Virus record (IMG/VR): IMGVR_UViG_3300025112_005828
Coordinates: 1-25,592 of that record
Strand: one strand, 5' to 3'
From: a virus
Length of the DNA stretch: 25,592 nucleotides
Shown: positions 3,864 through 18,704 of the stretch, in pieces
How the letters are laid out: each line of letters opens with the position of its first letter
Numbering within the stretch: the first letter of the stretch is position 1
Translations under genes and position numbers: made by a program
The notes under the pieces: model-generated
Told to the model about the DNA's origin: nothing
Seen by the model: the letters and a program-made list of their open reading frames with translations, nothing else
Database searches by the model: none

Positions 3864-5218
3864 ATCACTTTCTTTAATTTTGGAATCTCTATTTTTTCTT
3901 TATTTTTGCTGCTATTTATTTTTTTTAGTTTTGGCAGCTTCAAAGAAACTGGTGTTGATAAGTGCTTTGTATATTTTTCAACAACATCATTAATGAGTTC
4001 GCCCATTTTATTTAGTGTCAACGTTTTTCTGTGCTTTTCCATTAAATTTTTTGCTTTTTCTTTTATTAAATATTTATTTTCAAAAGCATATTTTAATGCT
4101 TTATAAACTTCGTGCTCATTAGTCATAAACCATTGACTTTCGGGAATTATAATATCTTCCCAAACGACCGATTTGGGAACTTTTACTAACTCTCCATTAA
4201 CAAACATTACATATTTTGATTCTAAAAAATCTATATGTCCACTCCAATTTGATGCAATTATTGGTAAACCAACTATTGAAGCCTCAAGAAATGGTCTACC
4301 AAATCCCTCGCCGTGAGTTAAAGATACCATACACTTAATTTTTGGATGATTGTAGAGCTCGTTCATTTCATCATCAGTTAAATCACCGTGCAATAAATAA
4401 ACATTGGGTAGATTCCAGTCACTGGGAAATTTATCTTTAATTTCCATAATCTTGCTAATCGTTTCACTTTTATCGAGAAGTGAAAACGTTGCTCCGCTTG
4501 TTTTAAGAATTAGTGCTGGCTTCTTTTTTAGATTTGCAAAACTTTCATAAAATATTTTTATTAATCTAGAAATATCCTTTCTATCTTCACCATATCCACC
4601 CTGAATCCATTGACCAACAAATAAAAAAGCAAAATCTTCATCAATAATATCATTTATATATTTCAAAATATTTCTGCTTATGTCTTTAACTTTAAGCGGT
4701 TTATAAACTTCTTCATCAATTCCCTCGAAAATAACTTCAATCGGTTTTTCAAGCTTATGTTCACCAACTTTTTGCTGTGAACCATCTGGCATATTCTGTA
4801 CTTTATCATAAACTGAAACCAAAAATCCAGATTTTGAATGTTCAGATGGCACAATTATTAAATCCATCTTATTGCATCCCTCAATCCACTTTGCTGATAC
4901 AGCATTTGTTTCTATTCCAGCTGTAATTCCAATATTAAATTTTCCAACTTGTTGCCACTCATTAGGTATCCGAATGTCAATATAAATATCGGGCTGTCTA
5001 TCTAACTTATACCCGTCTATTATAGAATCTAAAATTTGTTTATGCTTTAAATCATTCTTTTTAAGAAAGTTGCGAGGAGTGTTACCCCATCTTACATCTA
5101 TAACTTTTATATCATATTTATTAGAATCATATAAAGTCCAAAATATCGATCTAGCATGATCTCCATATCCTGATCGGGTATTAAGTGGTCCACACATTAA
5201 AACAAGCTTCTTATTCAT
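3860..5218 (-). CDS. GT4-family glycosyltransferase with double PKLKK tail
   Basis: 452 residues, GT-B fold. The N-terminal half begins KLVLMCGPLNTRSGYGDHAR (glycine loop) and contains IVPSEHSKSGF near 122-132, typical of GT4 enzymes. The C-terminal half has FLFVGQW near 198-204 and the E-x7-E donor motif at E304/E312 in GEGFGRPFLEAS. GT4 enzymes are retaining transferases using nucleotide sugars. After the catalytic domain comes a Lys-rich linker with LPKLKKI at 428-434 and IPKLKKVI at 445-452, which is not part of a usual GT4 domain. It overlaps both neighbours by 4 bases (ATGA). Acceptor unknown; a virion protein or host-type glycan is more likely than DNA, since it is unlike the T4 DNA glucosyltransferases. 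Confidence 0.88.
   Translation of the reverse strand: MNKKLVLMCGPLNTRSGYGDHARSIFWTLYDSNKYDIKVIDVRWGNTPRNFLKKNDLKHKQILDSIIDGYKLDRQPDIYIDIRIPNEWQQVGKFNIGITAGIETNAVSAKWIEGCNKMDLIIVPSEHSKSGFLVSVYDKVQNMPDGSQQKVGEHKLEKPIEVIFEGIDEEVYKPLKVKDISRNILKYINDIIDEDFAFLFVGQWIQGGYGEDRKDISRLIKIFYESFANLKKKPALILKTSGATFSLLDKSETISKIMEIKDKFPSDWNLPNVYLLHGDLTDDEMNELYNHPKIKCMVSLTHGEGFGRPFLEASIVGLPIIASNWSGHIDFLESKYVMFVNGELVKVPKSVVWEDIIIPESQWFMTNEHEVYKALKYAFENKYLIKEKAKNLMEKHRKTLTLNKMGELINDVVEKYTKHLSTPVSLKLPKLKKINSSKNKEKIEIPKLKKVI
3863..3937 (-). repeat. Two PKLKK copies at the end of the GT4 enzyme
   Basis: IPKLKKVI (3863-3886, last eight residues) and LPKLKKI (3917-3937), separated by a ten-residue Ser/Lys/Asn/Glu spacer. 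Together with the tail of the next gene these are three copies of (L/I)PKLKK(I/V) within 560 bases, in two different proteins, all at or next to the C-terminus. Confidence 0.7.
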
Positions 5219-6672
5219 GCTTGATCCCCAATTACTTTTATAGATATGTCTTCTTTTATATTGTCTTCAATTTTAATCAAATCGTAAAGCGATTTTGGCT
5301 TCCACTTCTCAAATGCTGAATCCATAGACTCAATAAATCTATTGCACATTTCTTTTGCAGTCATACCCACATCTTTTTCACAAACAAACTTTCTTCCAAG
5401 CTCTCCACACCGCTCTCTTTCTTCCACACCAACATCGTACCATTCTTTCATTGCATCACCTACTTCATCCCACCGACACCTATCATCAAAAATATAGGGT
5501 GTGGGAGGAGAACCCAATAATGATAAAGTTTTTGGCCAAACAGGTTTTGCCCACTTTCCATGTTTTTTATATTTCCCCTGATGATTAGATCCCAATTCTA
5601 TGTAATCATCTGGCGTTAAATACTTCAAAGTATTAATTGTTGTATCTCCATCAGAAGTTTCAACACGCTTTTTAAATCCACACTGATCCTGCAAACCACC
5701 AGTTACATTAACAATTATTGGTTTTCCAACTGTTAAAGCTTCTGCACTTCCCAATCCAAAACCCTCGTTTGATGCAATATTAACATAAACATCAATCGCA
5801 TTATATAAGTAATTCATCTTTATATCGTCAAATGGTCCACCTTTATCATATGTAAATATAACATTTTGATCTGGAATTAATGTTTTGCAAACAACTCTCA
5901 AATCAGTACCGTTATCGTCAACAGGAGCTGTATGAAATATCAAAACACATTTTTTCTGCTTATTTTTAGGTAACTGTTCTACAAAATGTTTATAAGCCAT
6001 AACAACATCACCAGGTACTTTTCTTCTAATATTTCTATTCAAATATAGAATCTTAAAATCATATTCATCTAAATCATATTCTTTTTTGAATTTAATAAAA
6101 TCTGAATTATTTGGATTAATTTTGAAAAATTTCTCAGTGTTTATCCCGTGAGGAACATACGTAATTTGCCAATCTTCAAATTCTGGTACTAGCCGCTTGT
6201 TTATTCCATAAGTCTGCTTTGATATAGCCATTAATAAGTCGCAGCTTAAATAATAATCGCGATTATATTTTGGATCTGGAAGATCATCCCAAATTTCATA
6301 ATAAAATATGGGAATTTTTGTTCTTATTTCGTGCTCCATTTGATAAAACCACAACCAAAATCTTGGATCAGTATAATGTAGAACCGCATCGGGTTTTTCA
6401 ATTTCTATAATCTGTCTTAACATATCTTGACTGCCATATCCAGAAGTTGGATAAATCTTTAAGTATGCATCTTTTACTCCAATTGATTCGCGAACGGCTT
6501 GAGACATATCAACAATTTTCCCTTCTTCAGGATGTTTTACGCTCCCTCCAATTTGCACAAAATCATAATGGTGAATTGCTCCCATTACAATTTCTTTTGA
6601 CATCACAGCAACACCACTGTGCATTCGCAGATCATCTGACATCATAAGTATTTTCTTTTTATTTTTTTTCAT
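5215..6672 (-). CDS. GT4-family glycosyltransferase
   Basis: 485 residues, GT-B fold. The N-terminus is a basic stretch followed by ILMMSDDLRMHSGVAVMSKE (donor/acceptor loop). VPHGINTEKF at 173-182 and KILYLNRNIRRK near 207-218 mark the entry to the second Rossmann domain, and E303/E311 in NEGFGLGSAEAL form the E-x7-E motif. It has no PKLKK tail, in contrast to the next gene. It starts with ATG after a 24-base gap from the small unknown gene and overlaps the next GT4 gene by 4 bases. Two consecutive GT4 enzymes suggest sequential sugar additions on one acceptor. Confidence 0.88.
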   Translation of the reverse strand: MKKNKKKILMMSDDLRMHSGVAVMSKEIVMGAIHHYDFVQIGGSVKHPEEGKIVDMSQAVRESIGVKDAYLKIYPTSGYGSQDMLRQIIEIEKPDAVLHYTDPRFWLWFYQMEHEIRTKIPIFYYEIWDDLPDPKYNRDYYLSCDLLMAISKQTYGINKRLVPEFEDWQITYVPHGINTEKFFKINPNNSDFIKFKKEYDLDEYDFKILYLNRNIRRKVPGDVVMAYKHFVEQLPKNKQKKCVLIFHTAPVDDNGTDLRVVCKTLIPDQNVIFTYDKGGPFDDIKMNYLYNAIDVYVNIASNEGFGLGSAEALTVGKPIIVNVTGGLQDQCGFKKRVETSDGDTTINTLKYLTPDDYIELGSNHQGKYKKHGKWAKPVWPKTLSLLGSPPTPYIFDDRCRWDEVGDAMKEWYDVGVEERERCGELGRKFVCEKDVGMTAKEMCNRFIESMDSAFEKWKPKSLYDLIKIEDNIKEDISIKVIGDQA

Positions 6673-9488: not shown

Positions 9489-9929
9489 TTAAATATTGAC
9501 TATTTCGCAAATTATTCCATTCTTATTTAAAAATGCAATACCATTAGAATCTCTATCATATTCTTTTAAATAATACACCTTTTTTATTCCAGCAGCAACA
9601 ATTAATTTAGCACAATATGAACAGGGTGAAATAGAAATATATAAATCTGCTCCTTCAGTAGACACGCCATTCCGAGCAGCCCATCCTAATGCATTCTGCT
9701 CGGCGTGTATTTCATTTTCTCTGCTGAATGCAGCATGATCTTTGCTGTTATATTCCTTAACAGTAAAGATACTCTCACAATGCTTACATTTTGGAGCAAC
9801 GCCATTCCACCCTGTTGAGATTATTCGCCCATCTTTAATAATAAGAGCAGCGACTTTAATTCTAATGCAAGTTGAATTTTTCTCAAAAACTTTTAATACT
9901 CCTGTAAATATTTTATTATAATCTGGCAT
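9489..9929 (-). CDS. dCMP deaminase (zinc-dependent cytidine/deoxycytidylate deaminase family)
   Basis: 146 residues. The zinc site is complete: His75-Ala-Glu77 in HAEQNAL (catalytic Glu77) and Cys103/Cys106 in SPCSYC. The N-terminal part TCIRIKVAALIIKDGRIISTGWNG is that of phage and bacterial dCMP deaminases, and an additional Cys/His set near 48-65 (CKHCES, DHAAF) matches the second zinc region seen in T-even enzymes. It converts dCMP to dUMP, feeding dTMP synthesis by the ThyX-like protein encoded just upstream (6-base gap). dCTP activation and dTTP inhibition are known for the family but cannot be shown here. Confidence 0.9.
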   Translation of the reverse strand: MPDYNKIFTGVLKVFEKNSTCIRIKVAALIIKDGRIISTGWNGVAPKCKHCESIFTVKEYNSKDHAAFSRENEIHAEQNALGWAARNGVSTEGADLYISISPCSYCAKLIVAAGIKKVYYLKEYDRDSNGIAFLNKNGIICEIVNI

Positions 9930-9935
9930 TTGTTT

Positions 9936-10943
9936 CTAATCCATTTCAAATAATATTTTATCTTTCTTATCTAATTTATCATAATCGTTGTAAGCATAAT
10001 GAATATATTCATGAGGATATACTATTGGTATTCCCAATTCTTTGAGTCTTTCATAAGATGTACAACTTTTATTAAATTCTCTATAAGTCTGATTTTCTTC
10101 TTTTTTTACTTTCCATCTACCACATCCATCAAATAAATTACTAAAATATTTTGTAAGCCCTTCTGGACCTTCCATATAGACACAGCGCTTGGCGTTATCA
10201 CAAACAGGCTTCAAATAATTAGCTAGCAATGGAAAGTATCTGTTTACTTCATCTCTGAATAACCAATGTAATGTAACAATACCCTCTTGTTCGCAAGCCA
10301 TAAGTCTTCTATTACATTGTCCTTTTAACGCAAGATAATTTATTCCAAAAACATAAGAATGATTTATGCTTTGTGGTAAAAATGCTCTACCAGTTTGCCA
10401 AGACGATTCAGAATATAATATTGTATCTTCATATAAATCTTTTGTAATCTTAATCCACTGCTCTACCTTTTGTTTATATTCAAAATCCTTATTCATTCTC
10501 TCAATAACATCATCGTATAAAAGAATATCAGCATCCAATTTGTTATTATCCCTTGTTCCTATTGACATAAAGTGTGCACCAATTCGTGCCCTTGCATGTT
10601 GATCAAAATCATGTCTAGTTAAACCATTCACTTCAAATTGAAATTGAATACCTTCAGAAGCTTGAAACAATGTATTACCAGTAAGATGTGACAACACAAG
10701 TCTGTATCTATTTTCTGGAGTAAGTCTTTCCCATTTCTGAGTACTACCTGTTTCGTTGTCTCCCCAAGTAGCAGTAACAGCCCGAACAATAATTTTATAT
10801 GGATTCTTAGGCCAATCTGTCATTTTAGTATAAATTGATGTAATATCATTTTCATAGTTATATGTTTTTTTGGGCTTCTGTGATGGTAGAGTTCCCATCG
10901 CATTTCGCATATTCTCAATTTCGCCTTTAGTTAATTTACTCAT
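9936..10943 (-). CDS. thyX: Divergent ThyX-like flavin-dependent thymidylate synthase
   Basis: 335 residues, longer than the usual 220-260. The ThyX core is visible: EGIQFQFEVNGLTRHDFDQH leads to R118-A-R120 and then SIGTR (127-131) where ThyX has RHRxxSxNExSxR, and GRAFLPQSINHSYVFGINYL at 185-204 with CNRRLMACEQEG matches the ARxVLP...N.RSL...R...AQ.EI region. The signature His and Asn-Glu are replaced, so the motif is degenerate. If active it would methylate dUMP to dTMP with FAD, NADPH and methylene-tetrahydrofolate. An extra C-terminal part (from ~245) is unexplained. It lies between DnaE and dCMP deaminase, as expected for a dTMP pathway. Alternative: a ThyX paralogue with another pyrimidine substrate. 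Confidence 0.7.
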   Translation of the reverse strand: MSKLTKGEIENMRNAMGTLPSQKPKKTYNYENDITSIYTKMTDWPKNPYKIIVRAVTATWGDNETGSTQKWERLTPENRYRLVLSHLTGNTLFQASEGIQFQFEVNGLTRHDFDQHARARIGAHFMSIGTRDNNKLDADILLYDDVIERMNKDFEYKQKVEQWIKITKDLYEDTILYSESSWQTGRAFLPQSINHSYVFGINYLALKGQCNRRLMACEQEGIVTLHWLFRDEVNRYFPLLANYLKPVCDNAKRCVYMEGPEGLTKYFSNLFDGCGRWKVKKEENQTYREFNKSCTSYERLKELGIPIVYPHEYIHYAYNDYDKLDKKDKILFEMD

Positions 10944-10952
10944 ATTGTCTCC

Positions 10953-13900
10953 TCACATTATTTTTATTTCTGATTGTTTTGCTTTTGTAAAACCAAATTT
11001 GCTTTTTGAAACCTTCATTACAATGAAATCGCCAATCTCAAGCGGTACAATATCTCTTGAATTAAACACAGTTACGTAAAGCTGTTTTTCATCATCTTCT
11101 ATTATTAATTTATAATATTCTCTTCCTGTCTTTTTTGCTTTTTTAAGAATAATATCATTAATTACACCACAAAGAATAACGCCTCCTTTTTTCTTATCTT
11201 GTAATTGCTTTGGACTAGAAATTTGATTAATCAAATAGGGAGTTTCTTCTCTTATTTTATCATATCTTATAACAAATGGATGTTCATCAAAATAAAAATC
11301 AAAATATTTTTTTTCAAATTTAATATATTCTTGTTTTGTCCAATCTTCAATTGCTCCATTATCATTAATAATGAAATCAATTTTTTCTTTAATACTTTCA
11401 TTTTTTTTCTTACTTTTAACTTTAGCAAAAATAATTTCTAATTGTTTTGAATTATCAAATATTTCATTAAAATATCTTAATCTACACAATGGTTCTATTG
11501 TTCGCTTAGATATTTTGTTTTCAATTAAATACTCAACTAAATCATAGACATTATCTGCTTCAACTTTATTTACAATAGAAACATCTTTTCTTTGCATACC
11601 TTTTATTTTATTTAATCCAAACGTAATGCAATTATTGCTATAATCAACAGAAAACTTATCATCTGTTTTTCCACTCTTAAATTCATTTATTTTTGTACCC
11701 TGCCTTTTAACCTGTTTTATGAACCAGCTTAAATCTGAACTTGTTGAGTGATTAAATAATGATGAAAAATATTCCTTTGGATAATATATCTTTAACCACA
11801 TTGAAATATATGCATTCATAGCATAACTCAATGAGTGCGCCTTACAAAAAGAATATTCTGAATATTTTCCAAGAATGTCAAATAACCAAGCAATGTGTTC
11901 TTTACTAATTCCATTCTTTCTTGCTTGTTTTTTAAATTTATCCATCATATTATAAAAATCTTTATTTTTTTCTTGGTTACCCTTATGTAATAGTTTCAGA
12001 ATTTTTCTACTTTTATCTGCTTCAGCTAATGTAAAACCCCCTAATTCTTGTAATATAAACATAATTTGTTCTTGAAAAATTGGAACACCAAAAGATTCTT
12101 TTGTGATTTTCCATAATTTCGAATGAACATTATCAAGCCTTTCTTTGGCTTCTTCTGGATTACGTTTATTTTTCAAGTATGCCTCAATTCCTTGAGCTTG
12201 AATAACGGCAGGTCTAAATAGTGCATTTACAACAGACAGATCATTAATATTTGTAGGCTTTATCTGCTTTAGTAAGCTAATCATGCTGTCAGAACCAAAT
12301 TGAAATATATCTCTACAATTTCCGCTTTGAAATTCTTCATAAACTTTTTGATCATTCAGATCTGATTTCAATATATTTTGTTCAATACTTTTAACATCGT
12401 AATTGTCTTCAATCAATCTTATTGTGTCATTTATAACAGAAACAGCTTTTAATCCTAATATATCAAGCTTGCAATATCCTAACTCGGCAACTTCTCTTTC
12501 ATCACCACCCTCTTGAACTCCTGTAACAAGCTCGCCTTTTAGTTTTAATAATGGAATATCTGATCTATCTAACGTTTTATTACTTAGCAATATTCCTGAA
12601 GCATGTCTTCCTGTTTGTCGTACCATTCCAACAAATTTATTTCCAACATTTGTAAACAAGCTTCTATTTTCTTCAATAAATTTTAATAAATCAATTTCAT
12701 TTTTCTTACTAGCAATTGTTTCTGCTTTATGAAGCTCACCCTCAATTTGAACAACAGATTTTAAATCATTGAAATATGATGTTAATCTATTTGACAAATT
12801 AAAATCTAACTCAAAAATTCTACAAAGATCTTTAATGGCAGTTTTAGCACCAAATTTACCAAAATTTGCTATATGACAAACCTTATTTTTTCCATATTTT
12901 TCTTTTAAATAGTTTTCAGTCTCTTTCTGTGTCTTTGAATCAATATCTAAATCAATATCGGCAGGATCAATTCTTGCTGGATTCATAAATCTATCAAAAA
13001 TTAAACTGTGTTTAATTGGATCAATTTTTGTAATGTCAAGAACAAATAATACTAGCGATCCAGGAGCGCTTCCTCTTCCTGCACCAGTTGCTCCACCACA
13101 TTTATAAACAAAATTATTAAGCAGATCATCAAGAATAAGAAAATAATCAATAAATCCTTTATCATTAATTACTTTCATTTCGTACTTAAGCCGTTCTTTA
13201 TATTCTTCCAATTTATCACTTGGAATTAATTCATTTTCAACTTTTTCATCCCATTTTTTATTAAGCTTTTCAAGAAACTGATTTTTGCTATACTCTTCTA
13301 TTTCATTGAATTTTGGAAAATTATCTGGATACAATGGCAACTCAATATCAACTTTGTCTCTAATTTCAAATGTAGATTTAATTGCAATATTTAGAAAATC
13401 TTCGTCAACTTGATATTTTTGTGCCAATGCATAAACTTCATCAGCTGTTTTAATATATAAATCTCTAACATCATAAAACCAATCAGAATCAGGATATTCT
13501 CTAACAGATTTTCTTCCCTTAATTACATAAAGAAGATATTGAATAAACCAATCATTTTTATCAACATAATGATAATCAGTTGCAAAAACCGGTTTTATAC
13601 CTGTTTTCTCATAAACTTTTTTATAAAAATTATTACATTTTTTCTGTTCATCAAGCTGATTTATAATAATTTCAAGATAAAAATCTTCACCAAATTTATC
13701 ATAAAATTTCTTAATGAGAGCTAAAGCTTCATTTTCTTTTCCACTTACAATCAATCTATTAAATACAGACTGTAAACATCCAGTTGTAACTATATTGTTG
13801 TTATCTAATTTTTCAAACAAAAGCTCAGTACTGACAAGTGGCTTTCTATAAAAATTTTCAAAACCAATATTCGTCAAATGAATTAAATTTTGCACACCCT

Positions 13901-14234
13901 TATAATTTTTACAATATGCAATTTGATGATAATTATCAGCTATAGCTTTTTTAGTTTTATCTTTTTCTTTTTGTCTTATTTCCAAAAACTGCTCATTGTC
14001 ACTATAATATAAATCATTCAAATATAATTCACAGCCAATTATAGGTTTAACATCATTTTCGATGCATTCCTTATAAAATTTAAAGAATGATGACATATTT
14101 CCATGTTCAGACAATCCTACAGCATTGGCACCAATTTCCTTTGTTCTTTCAACAATATCAGAAATTCTTGCAACACCATCACCCTGACTGTATGTACTAT
14201 GTCCGTGTAGTGGGATATATGTTTTATGTTTCAT
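10953..14234 (-). CDS. dnaE: DNA polymerase III alpha subunit (DnaE, family C)
   Basis: 1093 residues. N-terminal PHP domain: His10, His12, Asp19, His44, Glu69, His103, Cys153, Asp220 and His222 are all in place, so the metal-dependent 3'-5' proofreading site appears intact. Polymerase core: GAGRGSAPGS at ~385-393 (nucleotide-binding loop), Asp428 and Asp430 in the ADIDLDID motif, and Asp591 in KLDILGL make the catalytic triad. A C-terminal OB fold (~1010-1085, GVILCGVINDIILKKAKKTG) follows the helix-hairpin-helix region. It is somewhat shorter than E. coli DnaE (1160). ATG at 14234 abuts the preceding stop and has GAGAGGAAT upstream. It copies the phage genome with the window's helicase and SSB; no clamp or loader is in view. 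Confidence 0.95.
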   Translation of the reverse strand: MKHKTYIPLHGHSTYSQGDGVARISDIVERTKEIGANAVGLSEHGNMSSFFKFYKECIENDVKPIIGCELYLNDLYYSDNEQFLEIRQKEKDKTKKAIADNYHQIAYCKNYKGVQNLIHLTNIGFENFYRKPLVSTELLFEKLDNNNIVTTGCLQSVFNRLIVSGKENEALALIKKFYDKFGEDFYLEIIINQLDEQKKCNNFYKKVYEKTGIKPVFATDYHYVDKNDWFIQYLLYVIKGRKSVREYPDSDWFYDVRDLYIKTADEVYALAQKYQVDEDFLNIAIKSTFEIRDKVDIELPLYPDNFPKFNEIEEYSKNQFLEKLNKKWDEKVENELIPSDKLEEYKERLKYEMKVINDKGFIDYFLILDDLLNNFVYKCGGATGAGRGSAPGSLVLFVLDITKIDPIKHSLIFDRFMNPARIDPADIDLDIDSKTQKETENYLKEKYGKNKVCHIANFGKFGAKTAIKDLCRIFELDFNLSNRLTSYFNDLKSVVQIEGELHKAETIASKKNEIDLLKFIEENRSLFTNVGNKFVGMVRQTGRHASGILLSNKTLDRSDIPLLKLKGELVTGVQEGGDEREVAELGYCKLDILGLKAVSVINDTIRLIEDNYDVKSIEQNILKSDLNDQKVYEEFQSGNCRDIFQFGSDSMISLLKQIKPTNINDLSVVNALFRPAVIQAQGIEAYLKNKRNPEEAKERLDNVHSKLWKITKESFGVPIFQEQIMFILQELGGFTLAEADKSRKILKLLHKGNQEKNKDFYNMMDKFKKQARKNGISKEHIAWLFDILGKYSEYSFCKAHSLSYAMNAYISMWLKIYYPKEYFSSLFNHSTSSDLSWFIKQVKRQGTKINEFKSGKTDDKFSVDYSNNCITFGLNKIKGMQRKDVSIVNKVEADNVYDLVEYLIENKISKRTIEPLCRLRYFNEIFDNSKQLEIIFAKVKSKKKNESIKEKIDFIINDNGAIEDWTKQEYIKFEKKYFDFYFDEHPFVIRYDKIREETPYLINQISSPKQLQDKKKGGVILCGVINDIILKKAKKTGREYYKLIIEDDEKQLYVTVFNSRDIVPLEIGDFIVMKVSKSKFGFTKAKQSEIKIM

Positions 14235-14738
14235 CTAATTCCTCTCTGTATGTAATGATGTTATGTGAACATTAATTTTTTCAGTCTTTATTTTGATACC
14301 TCTTTTTTTCAATTCGTCACTTAATGCATTTGTTATTAACATATATGTTTGATTGTCATATAAAAAGTTGTTTTCAAAGTGTTGGCTTCTAACAAAAACA
14401 AATAAATGTAATATATTATCTCTAATAATAAACTGAAATAACGATAAACACCCAGCTAGATCTTTTCTATCATTATACTTCATTTGAATGACAAATTGTC
14501 TAGAATTTAAATCATTTATAAAATAATCAATGCCCTGTATAGTCTCTCTTAATAAAGTTTTTCTTTCATTGTCATCAGCAGCGGTTGCTTCACGGATATT
14601 TTTCTTCAAAAAACTATTTTTAACTTTAATATTGTAATTACAATTAAATAATTCTCTGTATTCTATTCCATTTATTTTAATAAATTCATAACCTTTATTA
14701 TTAAATAATTGTTCTATCTGTTTATATAATATAAGCAT
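14235..14738 (-). CDS. Short ThyA/dCMP-hydroxymethylase-fold protein
   Basis: 167 residues, about 100 shorter than ThyA, lacking the N-terminal part. Reading from ~78, NSRQFVIQMKYNDRKDLAGC aligns with ThyA's SRRxxxxxWNPxDLxxxxLPPC, giving the nucleophile Cys97. FQFIIRDNILHLFVFVRS matches FQFYVxxxxLxxxLYQRS with Arg117-Ser118. The region to Tyr132 aligns gap-free with ThyA's RSxDxxLGxPFNxxSY and puts Asp128 where ThyA has Asn177. NVHITSLH (157-163) matches DxHIYxNH, with His158. Asp at this position is the known hallmark of dCMP hydroxymethylase (T4 gp42). A usual ThyA residue is replaced next to Cys97 (Leu for His). Likely a pyrimidine-nucleotide C5-modifying enzyme or derivative; activity is uncertain because the N-terminal phosphate-binding Arg region is missing. 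Confidence 0.65.
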   Translation of the reverse strand: MLILYKQIEQLFNNKGYEFIKINGIEYRELFNCNYNIKVKNSFLKKNIREATAADDNERKTLLRETIQGIDYFINDLNSRQFVIQMKYNDRKDLAGCLSLFQFIIRDNILHLFVFVRSQHFENNFLYDNQTYMLITNALSDELKKRGIKIKTEKINVHITSLHTERN

Positions 14739-14741
14739 TTT

Positions 14742-15779
14742 TTATGAAATCCAAAAGGCTTTTTTTTCTATATTTTTTATTACACTAGAACACGTTAAAT
14801 GAATTCCAGAATCAATAGAAATATAATCACCAATAGAATTAACATCAACATTTAAATTTCTAGACTTTATATCATTTATATTATGATAATGTAAATAATC
14901 TTCAGACGGTATAAAATTTATTGCTTCATTGTTCAATGTAATAGATTCTATAAATTTGCCATCATCAATAAGCGACTTATATTGTACTTTTATTTTATTA
15001 AACAATTCATGCCAATTTAAAGAATTACAAAACAATTCACCAACATTTATTTCTTTATTCCATATTTCCTCTTTAATTGCTTTCAATACAACATTAGCAA
15101 TATTTTCTACTCTGATATAAGATTTAGGGATGTTAACATCTAATAACACATCAATTTTTGTTGATTTCATATAATAATTATAATACAAAACATAAATAAT
15201 CTTTGTTAATGCACTGTGAAGATCATCGGGATAATTACCAAAACCAAAAACAGGTCTAATTATCATTTTCTTATTCTCACACAGCTTATTTACAATTTGC
15301 TCACCAGCATATTTTGTAATTCCATAAAGTGTATTAGGCTGAATTTTAGTATACTCAGTAATAGCTTTAGTAGAAGAATAATCATCGATATCAAAAATAG
15401 CTGTTGTTGAAAAATATACTAAATCTATATTATATTTATTACATATATCAACAATGTTTTTAGTTCCTTCAACATTAGTTCTAATCGCACCTTGAGGATC
15501 TGCTTGACAAAAATCAGTACCAACAAATGCTCCTGAATGAATAATAATATCTGTATGTTCCCAGATTTTTTCAAGATCATTAAACAGCAGATCTCTATTA
15601 AGAAAATCAATCTCGGGTTTTCTAACTTCAAAACTTTTATGTACTTTTAATCTATTAAGATTATATAAATCGCTTGAATGACTATTCATAATTGTAAATT
15701 CTGAATTTCTGTTGGCGATGTCTTGAATTGCCATTGGAATTGTTCCACTTTCACCCGTTATAAAAATTTTTCTATTCAT
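14742..15779 (-). CDS. NAD-dependent epimerase/dehydratase (extended SDR)
   Basis: 345 residues. Rossmann start FITGESGTIP (6-15, the TGxxGxx(G) loop with the last Gly changed to Pro), HSGAFVG at 81-87, STT at 124-126, and Tyr152-x3-Lys156 (YGITK) form the extended-SDR catalytic set. These enzymes change nucleotide sugars (4-epimerases, 4,6-dehydratases, reductases). It overlaps the UDG-like gene by 8 bases and is followed by the ThyA-like gene after 2 bases, so it sits within the nucleotide block rather than beside the glycosyltransferases. It may feed the glycosylation cassette, or act on a base- or nucleotide-linked group. Substrate not readable. Confidence 0.85.
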   Translation of the reverse strand: MNRKIFITGESGTIPMAIQDIANRNSEFTIMNSHSSDLYNLNRLKVHKSFEVRKPEIDFLNRDLLFNDLEKIWEHTDIIIHSGAFVGTDFCQADPQGAIRTNVEGTKNIVDICNKYNIDLVYFSTTAIFDIDDYSSTKAITEYTKIQPNTLYGITKYAGEQIVNKLCENKKMIIRPVFGFGNYPDDLHSALTKIIYVLYYNYYMKSTKIDVLLDVNIPKSYIRVENIANVVLKAIKEEIWNKEINVGELFCNSLNWHELFNKIKVQYKSLIDDGKFIESITLNNEAINFIPSEDYLHYHNINDIKSRNLNVDVNSIGDYISIDSGIHLTCSSVIKNIEKKAFWIS

Positions 15780-16335
15780 ATTTATTTCCTAATAAACCAT
15801 ATTTCATCAAAACATTTTTTATCTGTATAATATATTTTTCTAATGCTATTCCGTGATATGAAAAACAATAATTTGGATGATAAATTTTTTCAAGATTATT
15901 AATATTAAATTGTTCCAGAAAACTATATACTTGATTTCCTGCTGCAATTATTATACTTGGCTTACAAAATTCAATCTCTTTCTTTAAATGATTATAGCAG
16001 GTTTTTACTGTATTTTTATTTACATCGTTATTTGTAGTTGAACATTTTACTATATTTGTAATATAACATTTATTAAAAACGCCAAATCGCTTAAAAATTT
16101 CTAAAAACTTTGCATTTTTATCTTTTTTAAAATTTCCACCTCCACCAAACGGATGTTTTAAATTTGGAAATCTATTTCTAGAAGGATTCAATCCAACAAT
16201 CATTATATTAGTCTTAGCATTGACTTTTGGCAATAATTTACCATATCCTGCCTCTTCTTTAAATTGATTAATTTCTAATAAATGTAATTCACAAAGCTTA
16301 CAATCTTGTATATCTTGTTTTATTTCTTTAATCAT
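15772..16335 (-). CDS. Uracil-DNA glycosylase-like protein with Fe-S cluster ligands
   Basis: 187 residues. Cys12, Cys15, Cys98 and Cys113 (C-x2-C ... C-x14-C) match the 4Fe-4S ligands of family 4 UDGs. IMIVGLNPS at 44-52 is the motif A position (family 4 usually has GEAPG; the Asn-Pro form is seen in families 2/3), FGGGGNF at 63-69 follows, and HPN at 153-155 is motif B. It should remove uracil or a related base from DNA. A phage carrying such an enzyme beside dCMP deaminase and an NTP pyrophosphatase would be guarding against dU or other base damage. Alternative: a glycosylase for a modified base. The ATG at 16335 overlaps the upstream stop by 4 bases. Confidence 0.75.
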   Translation of the reverse strand: MIKEIKQDIQDCKLCELHLLEINQFKEEAGYGKLLPKVNAKTNIMIVGLNPSRNRFPNLKHPFGGGGNFKKDKNAKFLEIFKRFGVFNKCYITNIVKCSTTNNDVNKNTVKTCYNHLKKEIEFCKPSIIIAAGNQVYSFLEQFNINNLEKIYHPNYCFSYHGIALEKYIIQIKNVLMKYGLLGNKYE

Positions 16336-16772
16336 ATTTTTTTCAAAATTTCTTTTACTGATTCTTCAACAGAATAATTTGTTGAATTAATTTTTTTAAT
16401 AAACATATTATGTTCTTCTAATTGAAGAATTACATCTTCAAAAGTATCTATATGTTTCTGTATATCATTAATTAATAAATCTTTCTCATTGTGCTTAATA
16501 AATCTTTTTTCTAAAACACTCTTTTCTGCTTCCAAATAAAAAAAATAATAATCTTTATCTTCATATAATTCTTTCATTTTTTCAATAAAAAATTTTTCAT
16601 TAATTTTTCTATTATAAATTCTAGAATATACAATTTGAGATAGAAACGACCTTGATATAACTAATGCTTTACCATCCGTCTGTCTAATTATCTCATCTTT
16701 AATTGAATCTTTTCCCGTCTTATCAACACCATCTAATATGATACAGCACTCTTTAATATTTTCTTTTTTCAT
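16332..16772 (-). CDS. P-loop dNMP kinase-like protein (thymidylate-kinase fold)
   Basis: 146 residues. IILDGVDKTGKDS (11-23) is the TMK-type Walker A beginning (x-DG-x-DKTGK), but the Ser/Thr after Lys21 is Asp22, with Ser23 next. YFFYLEAEKSVLEKRF at ~85-100 resembles the TMK strand and lid region, and the C-terminus is SVEESVKEILKKI. It is shorter than TMK (~210). A role as phosphoryl transferase to a dNMP, as for T4 gp1, fits the context between a dNTP pyrophosphatase-phosphatase and UDG; the altered Walker A leaves activity open. It lies 2 bases from its upstream neighbour and overlaps the next gene by 4. Confidence 0.65.
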   Translation of the reverse strand: MKKENIKECCIILDGVDKTGKDSIKDEIIRQTDGKALVISRSFLSQIVYSRIYNRKINEKFFIEKMKELYEDKDYYFFYLEAEKSVLEKRFIKHNEKDLLINDIQKHIDTFEDVILQLEEHNMFIKKINSTNYSVEESVKEILKKI

Positions 16773-16774
16773 TT

Positions 16775-17785
16775 TTACTCTGTAATGTTTTTGGTTTTTA
16801 AAAAAGAAATTAAATCTGAAAGTGTGTTGAAAGTTTTAATATTTTTATTTAGTATTTTACTATTTGCTTCAATCATCTTATCATAACTTTCAAACATAAG
16901 TTCATTATTGATAAGAAAAACATCAAAACCTTTTTCATAAAGCTTATTGACATTATTAATATTGTCGTCAATACAAAACATAACATTGTTTGAGTTAAAA
17001 TGCTCAATAATATATTTTTCTTTTTCTTCTTTCCAGATTATTGCATCAAAATATAAATTATTTTTATTTAACCACTCTAATGTATCACTATATATTCTAA
17101 ATATTTTTTTATACAATCTTGCAGTTAATAGAACTATATAATAGCCAGAATTCTTAAGAGAATCTAAAAGCTCGGCAGCATTTTCAAGCATGCCCATGTT
17201 ACTTTTAACGCCAGAAAGTCTATAATCATTTTTTATTGAATATGCCAATTTCTTTTCCAGGCTGTTTTCAACTTCAAAAAATGTTTCATAATTTGTTCCA
17301 AGTTTATTATTTACAAACTGAATATACGTTTCTGGCCATGTTGCCAAAACCCCATCGATATCAACAAAAACAATTTTATGCCCCCTTTCAGATTTTAATT
17401 TTTCTATTAACTCTTCTTGTTCAAATTTTGCTTCAACAACTTTTGATTTATCAATAAATTTGTTATAAATTTCATCAGCAGAAAAACCATTTAATATGAG
17501 CAAACCAAGAAGATATTTTAATACATCTACACCCTCTTCTAAAAGATTGTCTTCAATATCTACAGTGTCTTTTGTTGCATGAAATTTCCAATCAACTTCA
17601 TCTAGTATTTCAGTTGCCTCTTTTATAAGTGAAAGAACATAATCCTTTGTCCAAAAAATCTTTCTTTCATAATCTTCTTTAATTGTAGAAACATCATATC
17701 CCATTTTCTTCAAAAAAAACTCTTTAGTAAACTTTTCTTGAATTTTATACATCTCTTCAAAGCTTTTATTATTTTTGTTATTCAT
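16775..17785 (-). CDS. All-alpha NTP pyrophosphatase (dUTPase/MazG type) fused to HAD phosphatase
   Basis: 336 residues, two enzymes in one chain. Residues ~1-125 form an all-alpha NTP pyrophosphatase: Glu56-x2-Glu59 (KEATEILDE) and Glu84-x2-Asp87 (EEGVDVLKYLLGL) are the ExxE...ExxD magnesium ligands of dimeric dUTPase/dCTPase. Residues ~136-330 are a HAD phosphatase: Asp142 and Asp144 (FVDIDGVLA), Thr221 (LLTAR), Lys252-255 (WKEEK) and Asp273-Asp274 (CIDDN), resembling 5'(3')-deoxyribonucleotidases. Together they could take a dNTP to dNMP and on to the nucleoside. Substrate (dUTP, dCTP or a modified form) cannot be read. Overlaps the oxidoreductase gene by 8 bases. Confidence 0.75.
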   Translation of the reverse strand: MNNKNNKSFEEMYKIQEKFTKEFFLKKMGYDVSTIKEDYERKIFWTKDYVLSLIKEATEILDEVDWKFHATKDTVDIEDNLLEEGVDVLKYLLGLLILNGFSADEIYNKFIDKSKVVEAKFEQEELIEKLKSERGHKIVFVDIDGVLATWPETYIQFVNNKLGTNYETFFEVENSLEKKLAYSIKNDYRLSGVKSNMGMLENAAELLDSLKNSGYYIVLLTARLYKKIFRIYSDTLEWLNKNNLYFDAIIWKEEKEKYIIEHFNSNNVMFCIDDNINNVNKLYEKGFDVFLINNELMFESYDKMIEANSKILNKNIKTFNTLSDLISFLKTKNITE

Positions 17786-18704
17786 TCTTGAGCTCTAAAA
17801 TTCGTTTTATTATTTCATTTATTTTCATTTTGTGTGTCCACTGTGCATAGCGTCCAATAAAAAATATATTATCATATTCCTTAAAATTAATATTTTTCAT
17901 AATTTGTATAGGAATAGTCTTTTGCTCGATAATTCTATTTCCATCTATTTCTTTTTGACTATATTTATTAATAGTCTCATATACGATATAATTATCATCT
18001 GAAAAATATGTTTTTCTTGTCCAAAGTCCATCAACTGAATACAAATATTTAAATTCTTTACTACTTTCTATATCTTGTACGTTATCAAAATTCGTTTTAT
18101 AAAAATATTTACAACCAAGTTCAAATATGTCTTTTTGAAATATGCTATAAGGCTCTGTAAGCTTATTAAAAATATTAAGTGGTATTGTATTATATAGTGT
18201 ATCATATTTATATTCTTCGCAATCTGTTACAACAGTATCTTTATTTAATAAAATTTTATCAACATCATCAATAATAATCTGCTTTCTATCATTTAATATA
18301 TCTATTATTTTCTGTAATAATATAGTATAAGAATTGTCAAAATTGTTGTTAATAATAATGACAGCTATTTGATTTTTACCACCCGATAAGAATGAGCTCT
18401 TTATCTTCTTTGTATTCCGTGTAATTTCAGAATATTTTAGTTTAAAATCTTGATTCAGTGTATCACAAATTGCACTATCAATAATGTATCCAATTTTTAT
18501 ATTTTTAATAACAACATTGTTGGGCCCAAACAATTCTATACAAATATCTAACAAATTACTATCAAACTGAAGAAGTCGTGGACCAAGTGAGAAATCGCCG
18601 TTCATTTGTCCCATTAATTCTTTCCCAATTATTGTTGAATCTTTATTAAAATAACCAGCCGTTAAACCTGCAACACCAGTTCCTAATATAATTTTTTTTC
18701 TCAT
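17778..18704 (-). CDS. Small FAD-dependent oxidoreductase (GxGxxG, amine-oxidase/UGM-like)
   Basis: 308 residues. KKIILGTGVAGLTAG gives the dinucleotide loop G8-x-G10-x2-G13, and the C-terminal FFIGRYAQWTHKMKINEII is the FAD-binding end motif of the NAD(P)-binding Rossmann/flavin amine oxidase and UDP-galactopyranose mutase group. A Cys-Glu-Glu-Tyr segment near 188-195 precedes a LYNTIPL strand, as in that group. It is shorter than usual (~370-450). It starts four bases inside the end of the RNR gene (ATGA) and is followed by the NTP pyrophosphatase fusion. The reaction is unknown; a nucleotide-sugar mutase, a desaturase-like oxidase or a flavin donor are possibilities. Confidence 0.7.
   Translation of the reverse strand: MRKKIILGTGVAGLTAGYFNKDSTIIGKELMGQMNGDFSLGPRLLQFDSNLLDICIELFGPNNVVIKNIKIGYIIDSAICDTLNQDFKLKYSEITRNTKKIKSSFLSGGKNQIAVIIINNNFDNSYTILLQKIIDILNDRKQIIIDDVDKILLNKDTVVTDCEEYKYDTLYNTIPLNIFNKLTEPYSIFQKDIFELGCKYFYKTNFDNVQDIESSKEFKYLYSVDGLWTRKTYFSDDNYIVYETINKYSQKEIDGNRIIEQKTIPIQIMKNINFKEYDNIFFIGRYAQWTHKMKINEIIKRILELKNE

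Follow-up and report, generated by a model that had tools for sequence, protein, structure and literature searches.

A short thymidylate synthase-fold protein from uncultured viruses: a candidate folate-independent dCMP-modifying enzyme

Asp at the site of E. coli ThyA Asn177 is the cytosine mark of the thymidylate synthase (TS) superfamily, and the two go together in all cases found for which the biochemistry is known (PMC8670742, PMC5175136, PMC6400193). The dCMP hydroxymethylase of T4 requires Glu60, Tyr96, Cys148, Asp145, Asp171 and Asp179. Glu60 is conserved across all TS/CH/dCH members and is needed for folate activation, Tyr96 and Asp145 are associated with water activation and Asp171 with the pterin, and the Tyr96Phe and Asp145Asn enzymes are inactive (PMC6400193). 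The 5-hydroxy-dCMP of Mosigvirus comes from a TS-superfamily synthase whose activity is distinct from that of the hydroxymethylase; in RB69/Mosigvirus it is then arabinosylated, with the sugar directly on C5 via an ether link (PMC13390438). PDB entry 9iqu is described as the phage HY126 dCMP hydroxylase AfhB with dCMP, and 9iqc as a riboflavin-dependent monooxygenase with dCMP and FAD; these entry titles are the source for the FAD dependence of AfhB. RB69 ORF048c has almost the same sequence as 9iqc, and RB69 has a thymidylate kinase gene beside the TS homologue. A 2025 paper by Lee et al. is reported to concern glycosylated 5-hydroxycytosine. The TS of Xanthomonas phage Xp15 adjoins a Nol-like carbamoyltransferase, which is the carbamoyltransferase-plus-TS arrangement of PMC8670742.

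The window analyzed here is a stretch of 25,592 bases that makes up an entire IMG/VR record, and it encodes a short protein, referred to as mini-TS (Table 1). It is nearly certain that mini-TS has the TS fold, as a sequence-only reading of the window had proposed. The window mini-TS alone matches thymidylate synthase in PHROGs (E=8e-5), and phrog_160 is matched by 15 of 17 family members with a best E of 5.5e-9. When searched against the PDB, a four-member family profile matches E. coli-type ThyA (E=4e-5), AfhB (1.7e-3) and T4 dCMP hydroxymethylase (4e-3). The AF2 model (pLDDT 90.9) retrieves many TS-fold structures in Foldseek at E ~1e-8, and the top PDB match is 9iqu, AfhB (E=1.7e-8, TMq 0.70). 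These ranks fail to separate AfhB-like from folate-like proteins, as do the profile-profile scores, which do not favor AfhB (E 8e-10 vs 2e-11 for the folate-type group). PF00303 in Pfam is not matched by the window mini-TS; two relatives match it, both under the cut-off. No match better than E ~0.02 was found for the window mini-TS in INPHARED. The Yersinia, Serratia and Pseudomonas phage matches are annotated genes of ~280-290 codons, none of them short.

The mini-TS family has at least 15 distinct sequences of 158-178 aa, almost all from IMG/VR contigs, which agrees with the suggestion that the protein is unusually short and may mark a new branch. A scan of viral contigs with the single mini-TS sequence found no relatives; these were reached via neighbor genes first and a profile scan afterwards. 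The window ThyX used as a query resulted in three contigs and the MazG-HAD protein in nine loci, and the first mini-TS relatives were among the genes neighboring these matches. The mini-TS profile scan resulted in 16 viral loci plus L033, a contig binned in an archaeal MAG. Clustering the 17 aligned sequences at 90% identity leaves 15 groups, and pairwise identities are 25-97%. Among the relatives dN/dS is ~0.1-0.3, and dN well under dS indicates purifying selection. Since the family exists and dN/dS is low, the mini-TS reading frame is real and a chance ORF is ruled out. The L033 protein is 58% identical to the window mini-TS (tblastn) and its locus is syntenic with the window. This 9.5 kb contig (NZCT01000007.1) carries the same viral-type cassette in the archaeal-MAG bin, and both a host link and mis-binning are possible. 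L002 and L012 each encode a fusion protein in which a thymidylate-kinase-like domain is followed by a TS-like one, and L004 encodes a divergent, stand-alone TS-like protein. The latter has two genes for SDR proteins and one unrelated gene of 130 aa in its vicinity (L004:13736-18761).

The nucleotide site is retained. The panel alignment equates mini-TS Arg80, Cys97, Arg117-Ser118, Asp128 and His163 with ThyA Arg126, Cys146, Arg166-Ser167, Asn177 and His207, and these residues together with Gln119 are invariant (17/17). Asp128 is placed at the Asn177 site by an ungapped stretch of sequence alignment, and the spacings from Cys to Arg (+20) and from Arg to Asp (+11) are identical in mini-TS, ThyA, T4 gp42 and RB69/AfhB. 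The sequence-only reading was therefore right about the Cys97 nucleophile, Arg117-Ser118 and the Asp128 counterpart of Asn177. It had also chosen His158 as the conserved histidine, which is present in 12 of 17 sequences, whereas His163 is present in all. Its Tyr132 does align with ThyA Tyr181, but is variable (14/17). Asp128 at the base-discriminating site of every member upholds the proposed link to cytosine, and the substrate of mini-TS is probably a cytosine nucleotide. The residue at the Ser118 position is Ala in MilA, a ribonucleotide enzyme (PMC5175136); since mini-TS keeps the Ser, its alignment suggests that a deoxynucleotide is the likely substrate. The ThyA His147 position, which differs in modified phages (PMC8670742), is Leu or Ile in the mini-TS family.

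The folate side of the protein is missing. ThyA ~40-105, the helical folate segment with Glu58, Trp80 and Tyr94, has no counterpart in mini-TS, and the C-terminal tail of ThyA is also absent. The AF2 model has an N-terminal helix and strands and then runs nearly straight to the helices preceding Arg80. The protein had been described as only the second half of a TS; instead, mini-TS retains the first helix and strand, and its loss is internal, apart from the C-terminal tail. A simple N-terminal truncation is ruled out by the retained first strand. An N-terminal Arg region had likewise been reported as lacking, which is correct in that Arg21 is not conserved; however, Arg80 is kept and the lost segment follows Arg21. 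In the panel, Glu58, Tyr94, Asp169 and Gly173 are kept by ThyA, T4 gp42 and a further six relatives of full length; ThyA and T4 gp42 are the only biochemically proven folate enzymes in the panel. The exception is a Yersinia TS, which keeps Asp169 and Tyr94 and in which Glu58 is not aligned. RB69 ORF048c and its relatives carry Phe58 and Gln168-Asn169. The mini-TS family has no Glu58 or Tyr94 (ThyA numbering), and Asp169 is replaced by Asn or His and Gly173 by Asn; Gln168-Asn169 occurs in 15 of 17 members and Gln-His in the window (His120) and L033. The family has its own invariant N-terminal residues (Glu29, Tyr35, Asp55, Glu58 and Arg59, mini-TS numbering), which may line the site in place of the lost segment. 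Neither DHFR nor a full ThyA was found in 14 related contigs. It is quite likely that mini-TS is independent of folate.

Table 1. Location of mini-TS and other features in the window.
Feature	Position	Strand	Remarks
Glycosyltransferase-like protein	5215..6672	-	Assigned by eye, not family search; candidate contributor
dCMP deaminase	9489..9929	-	
Atypical ThyX	9936..10943	-	Pfam E=2e-8; RAR for RHR; four conserved Cys in C-terminal extension
DNA polymerase III alpha-type polymerase	10953..14234	-	Directly downstream of mini-TS
mini-TS	14235..14738	-	167 aa, TS-fold; Cys97, Arg80, Arg117-Ser118-Gln119-His120, Asp128, His163; folate cap absent
SDR / nucleotide-sugar epimerase-reductase family	14742..15779	-	Closest solved: dTDP-4-dehydrorhamnose reductase
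Uracil-DNA-glycosylase-superfamily protein	15772..16335	-	
Thymidylate-kinase-like deoxynucleotide kinase	16332..16772	-	Fused to TS-like domain in L002, L012
MazG/dUTPase_2-like N-terminus + HAD / NT5C-like C-terminus fusion	16775..17785	-	
Compact FAD protein, UDP-galactopyranose-mutase (UGM)-like fold	17778..18704	-	E=3e-11

The cassette fits a modified, possibly glycosylated, base, and the setting of base modification noted earlier is consistent with the kinase, MazG, dCMP deaminase, sugar enzyme and UDG-like genes. With small variations, the order in related loci is UGM-like protein, MazG-HAD, (dUTPase), a 99-136 aa protein, kinase, SDR, mini-TS, (Pol III), ThyX a and ThyX b. The SDR gene adjoins mini-TS in all loci of the family, and many relatives have the dUTPase. 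In L009:9193-10044 and L010:9284-10237 the UDG domain forms one protein with the kinase, and in L015:6056-7003 it apparently follows the kinase. The conserved 99-136 aa protein (FYENPAAKQE, KTLIFGKV) occurs at L009:8909-9208, L011:8930-9268, L017:7142-7552 and elsewhere; no relative of it was found in the window or L033. Of 13 related contigs, 8 have a counterpart of the putative glycosyltransferase, at 42-49% identity. Its homologue at L002:17341-18687 is broken by an in-frame TGA, which also occurs in the L003 contig from a different sample.

The homology, fold, residue identities and gene cassette lead us to infer that mini-TS is a folate-independent enzyme of minimal size that modifies dCMP at C5, most plausibly by 5-hydroxylation, and feeds a modified-cytosine pathway; this reading is tentative, with a probability of about 0.42, and its substrate, chemistry, product and glycosylation are all conditional. 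The protein would bind the monophosphate of a pyrimidine deoxynucleoside, dCMP being the most likely, with Asp128 recognizing the cytosine and with Arg80 of the partner subunit, Arg117, Ser118 and His163 holding the phosphate and deoxyribose. A Cys97 thioether at C6 would activate C5. One-carbon transfer in the T4 manner would have disappeared with the helical segment and the residues by which methylene-tetrahydrofolate is bound and activated. RB69-type enzymes and the mini-TS family have both lost Glu58, and the Gln168-Asn169 of the former recurs in most of the family, though as Gln-His in the window; therefore, 5-hydroxylation is the best single guess, although overall sequence similarity does not favor it. 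Oxidation at C5 would result in 5-hydroxy-dCMP, as in RB69/AfhB, by mini-TS alone or with a flavoprotein partner. The thymidylate-kinase-like neighbor may phosphorylate this product, the MazG/dUTPase-type enzymes may remove competing nucleotides, and the SDR and UGM-like pair may produce an activated sugar for subsequent glycosylation.

A possible partner is the atypical ThyX. It occurs in every mini-TS locus whose sequence extends that far, often adjacent, as a single protein in the window, L033, L002 and L004 and as two adjacent paralogues in most other related contigs (L009:11466-12994, L010:11644-13187, L011:6324-7816, L017:12928-14452). Each paralogue of the pair carries part of the motif set found in the single form, FMSIGCRDNNK in ThyX a and YDQHSRAR in ThyX b. 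C248, C254, C274 and C294 in the C-terminal part of the window ThyX are conserved in the single ThyX and ThyX b, and a metal or Fe-S site is possible. A ThyX profile had no match in the PDB at E 0.01. The ordinary RHR is seen in the L012 ThyX, and the L012 contig has one further ThyX besides that of the cassette; therefore, the cassette copy need not make dTMP and may belong to the modification pathway. Since the window ThyX is itself atypical, and since the L012 contig has this extra copy, it is no proof of thymidylate supply. The earlier argument that a second thymidylate synthase would be needless is weakened for the same reason, as this ThyX may not be an ordinary thymidylate synthase.

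These features, including the divided motifs and the conserved cysteines, could also fit a two-component C5 enzyme in which mini-TS presents activated dCMP and ThyX, single or a/b, delivers a flavin-borne oxygen or one-carbon unit, with neither being active alone. This is unlikely, given that no TS-ThyX fusion was seen, that the fused kinase-TS-like protein of L012 accompanies a more ordinary ThyX, and that ThyX may simply make dTMP. A strictly folate-free form, in which mini-TS holds and activates dCMP and the ThyX, often an a/b pair, supplies flavin chemistry, is slightly less likely again. To our knowledge, no earlier machine joins the TS and ThyX folds.

The sequence-only reading favored T4-type hydroxymethylation, which does not agree well with the residues that the T4 enzyme requires. 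Cys148 and Asp179 are the only two of the six with a counterpart in mini-TS; Glu60 and Tyr96 are deleted, Asp145 corresponds to Leu94 and Asp171 to His120 in the window. Since equivalents of Glu60, Tyr96 and Asp145 are missing, the alignment makes a T4-type reaction unlikely unless another protein provides the folate site. The Asp at the 177 site does not decide the matter, as an Asp-type TS homologue with other chemistry is known in the RB69-type 5-hydroxy-dCMP synthase. A reduced form of gp42, producing 5-hydroxymethyl-dCMP with a folate site provided by another protein, would account for this Asp, the Cys nucleophile, the T4-like hydroxymethylases among the closest sequence matches and the T4-like kinase and MazG setting; however, it is the folate cap itself that has been deleted, and this explanation is improbable. 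The lack of DHFR in the related contigs argues only weakly against it, since a hydroxymethylase does not require DHFR.

A uracil-directed or other pyrimidine modification is more doubtful still. The Asp would then make a different base contact, with dUMP or a modified dUMP as the substrate, and the dUTPase of many relatives together with the dCMP deaminase and ThyX of the window would suit a dUMP pool, but this runs against the association of this Asp with cytosine in the biochemically known cases noted above. Least probable is a role without catalysis, in which mini-TS would bind nucleotides as a subunit or sensor and regulate the kinase. The lost cofactor site and the kinase fusions in L002 and L012 fit such a role, but a simple sensor would have no need of the invariant Cys97, Arg80, Asp128 and His163.

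If the 5-hydroxylase reading is correct, uncultured viruses from many samples would have a TS fold reduced to its nucleotide-binding core and free of folate, which would extend RB69-type 5-hydroxycytosine chemistry to a new lineage and provide a very small scaffold for base modification. It would also call for caution in annotating phage genomes, where Asp at 177 would signify cytosine and not necessarily hydroxymethylation.

Compared with the known systems, mini-TS resembles AfhB in the TS fold, the Cys, the Arg-Ser-Gln-Asn motif (with His for Asn in the window), Asp at 177 and the absence of Glu58, and the AfhB gene also adjoins thymidylate kinase and sugar genes. However, AfhB has 238 aa and the full helical segment with Phe58/Tyr94, while mini-TS lacks this segment and has other conserved partners (SDR, UGM-like protein and ThyX). 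Overall sequence similarity to AfhB is no higher than to the folate-type enzymes. The Xp15 TS has Asp at 177 and is a structural match, but it is full length, has Glu58, Tyr94 and Asp169, and lies in another cassette. E. coli ThyA shares the fold and the nucleotide-site Arg126, Cys146, Arg166, Ser167 and His207; mini-TS differs in having Asp for Asn177 and Leu/Ile for His147, and is without Glu58, Trp80, Tyr94, Asp169, Gly173 and the C-terminal tail. T4 gp42 has in common the fold, Cys148, Asp179, the Arg/Ser/His nucleotide ligands and the logic of a kinase and MazG-type pathway, whereas its Glu60, Tyr96, Asp145, Asp171 and folate-site helices are absent from mini-TS. Mini-TS would thus be a pared-down member of an established enzyme family rather than simply a further T4-type enzyme.
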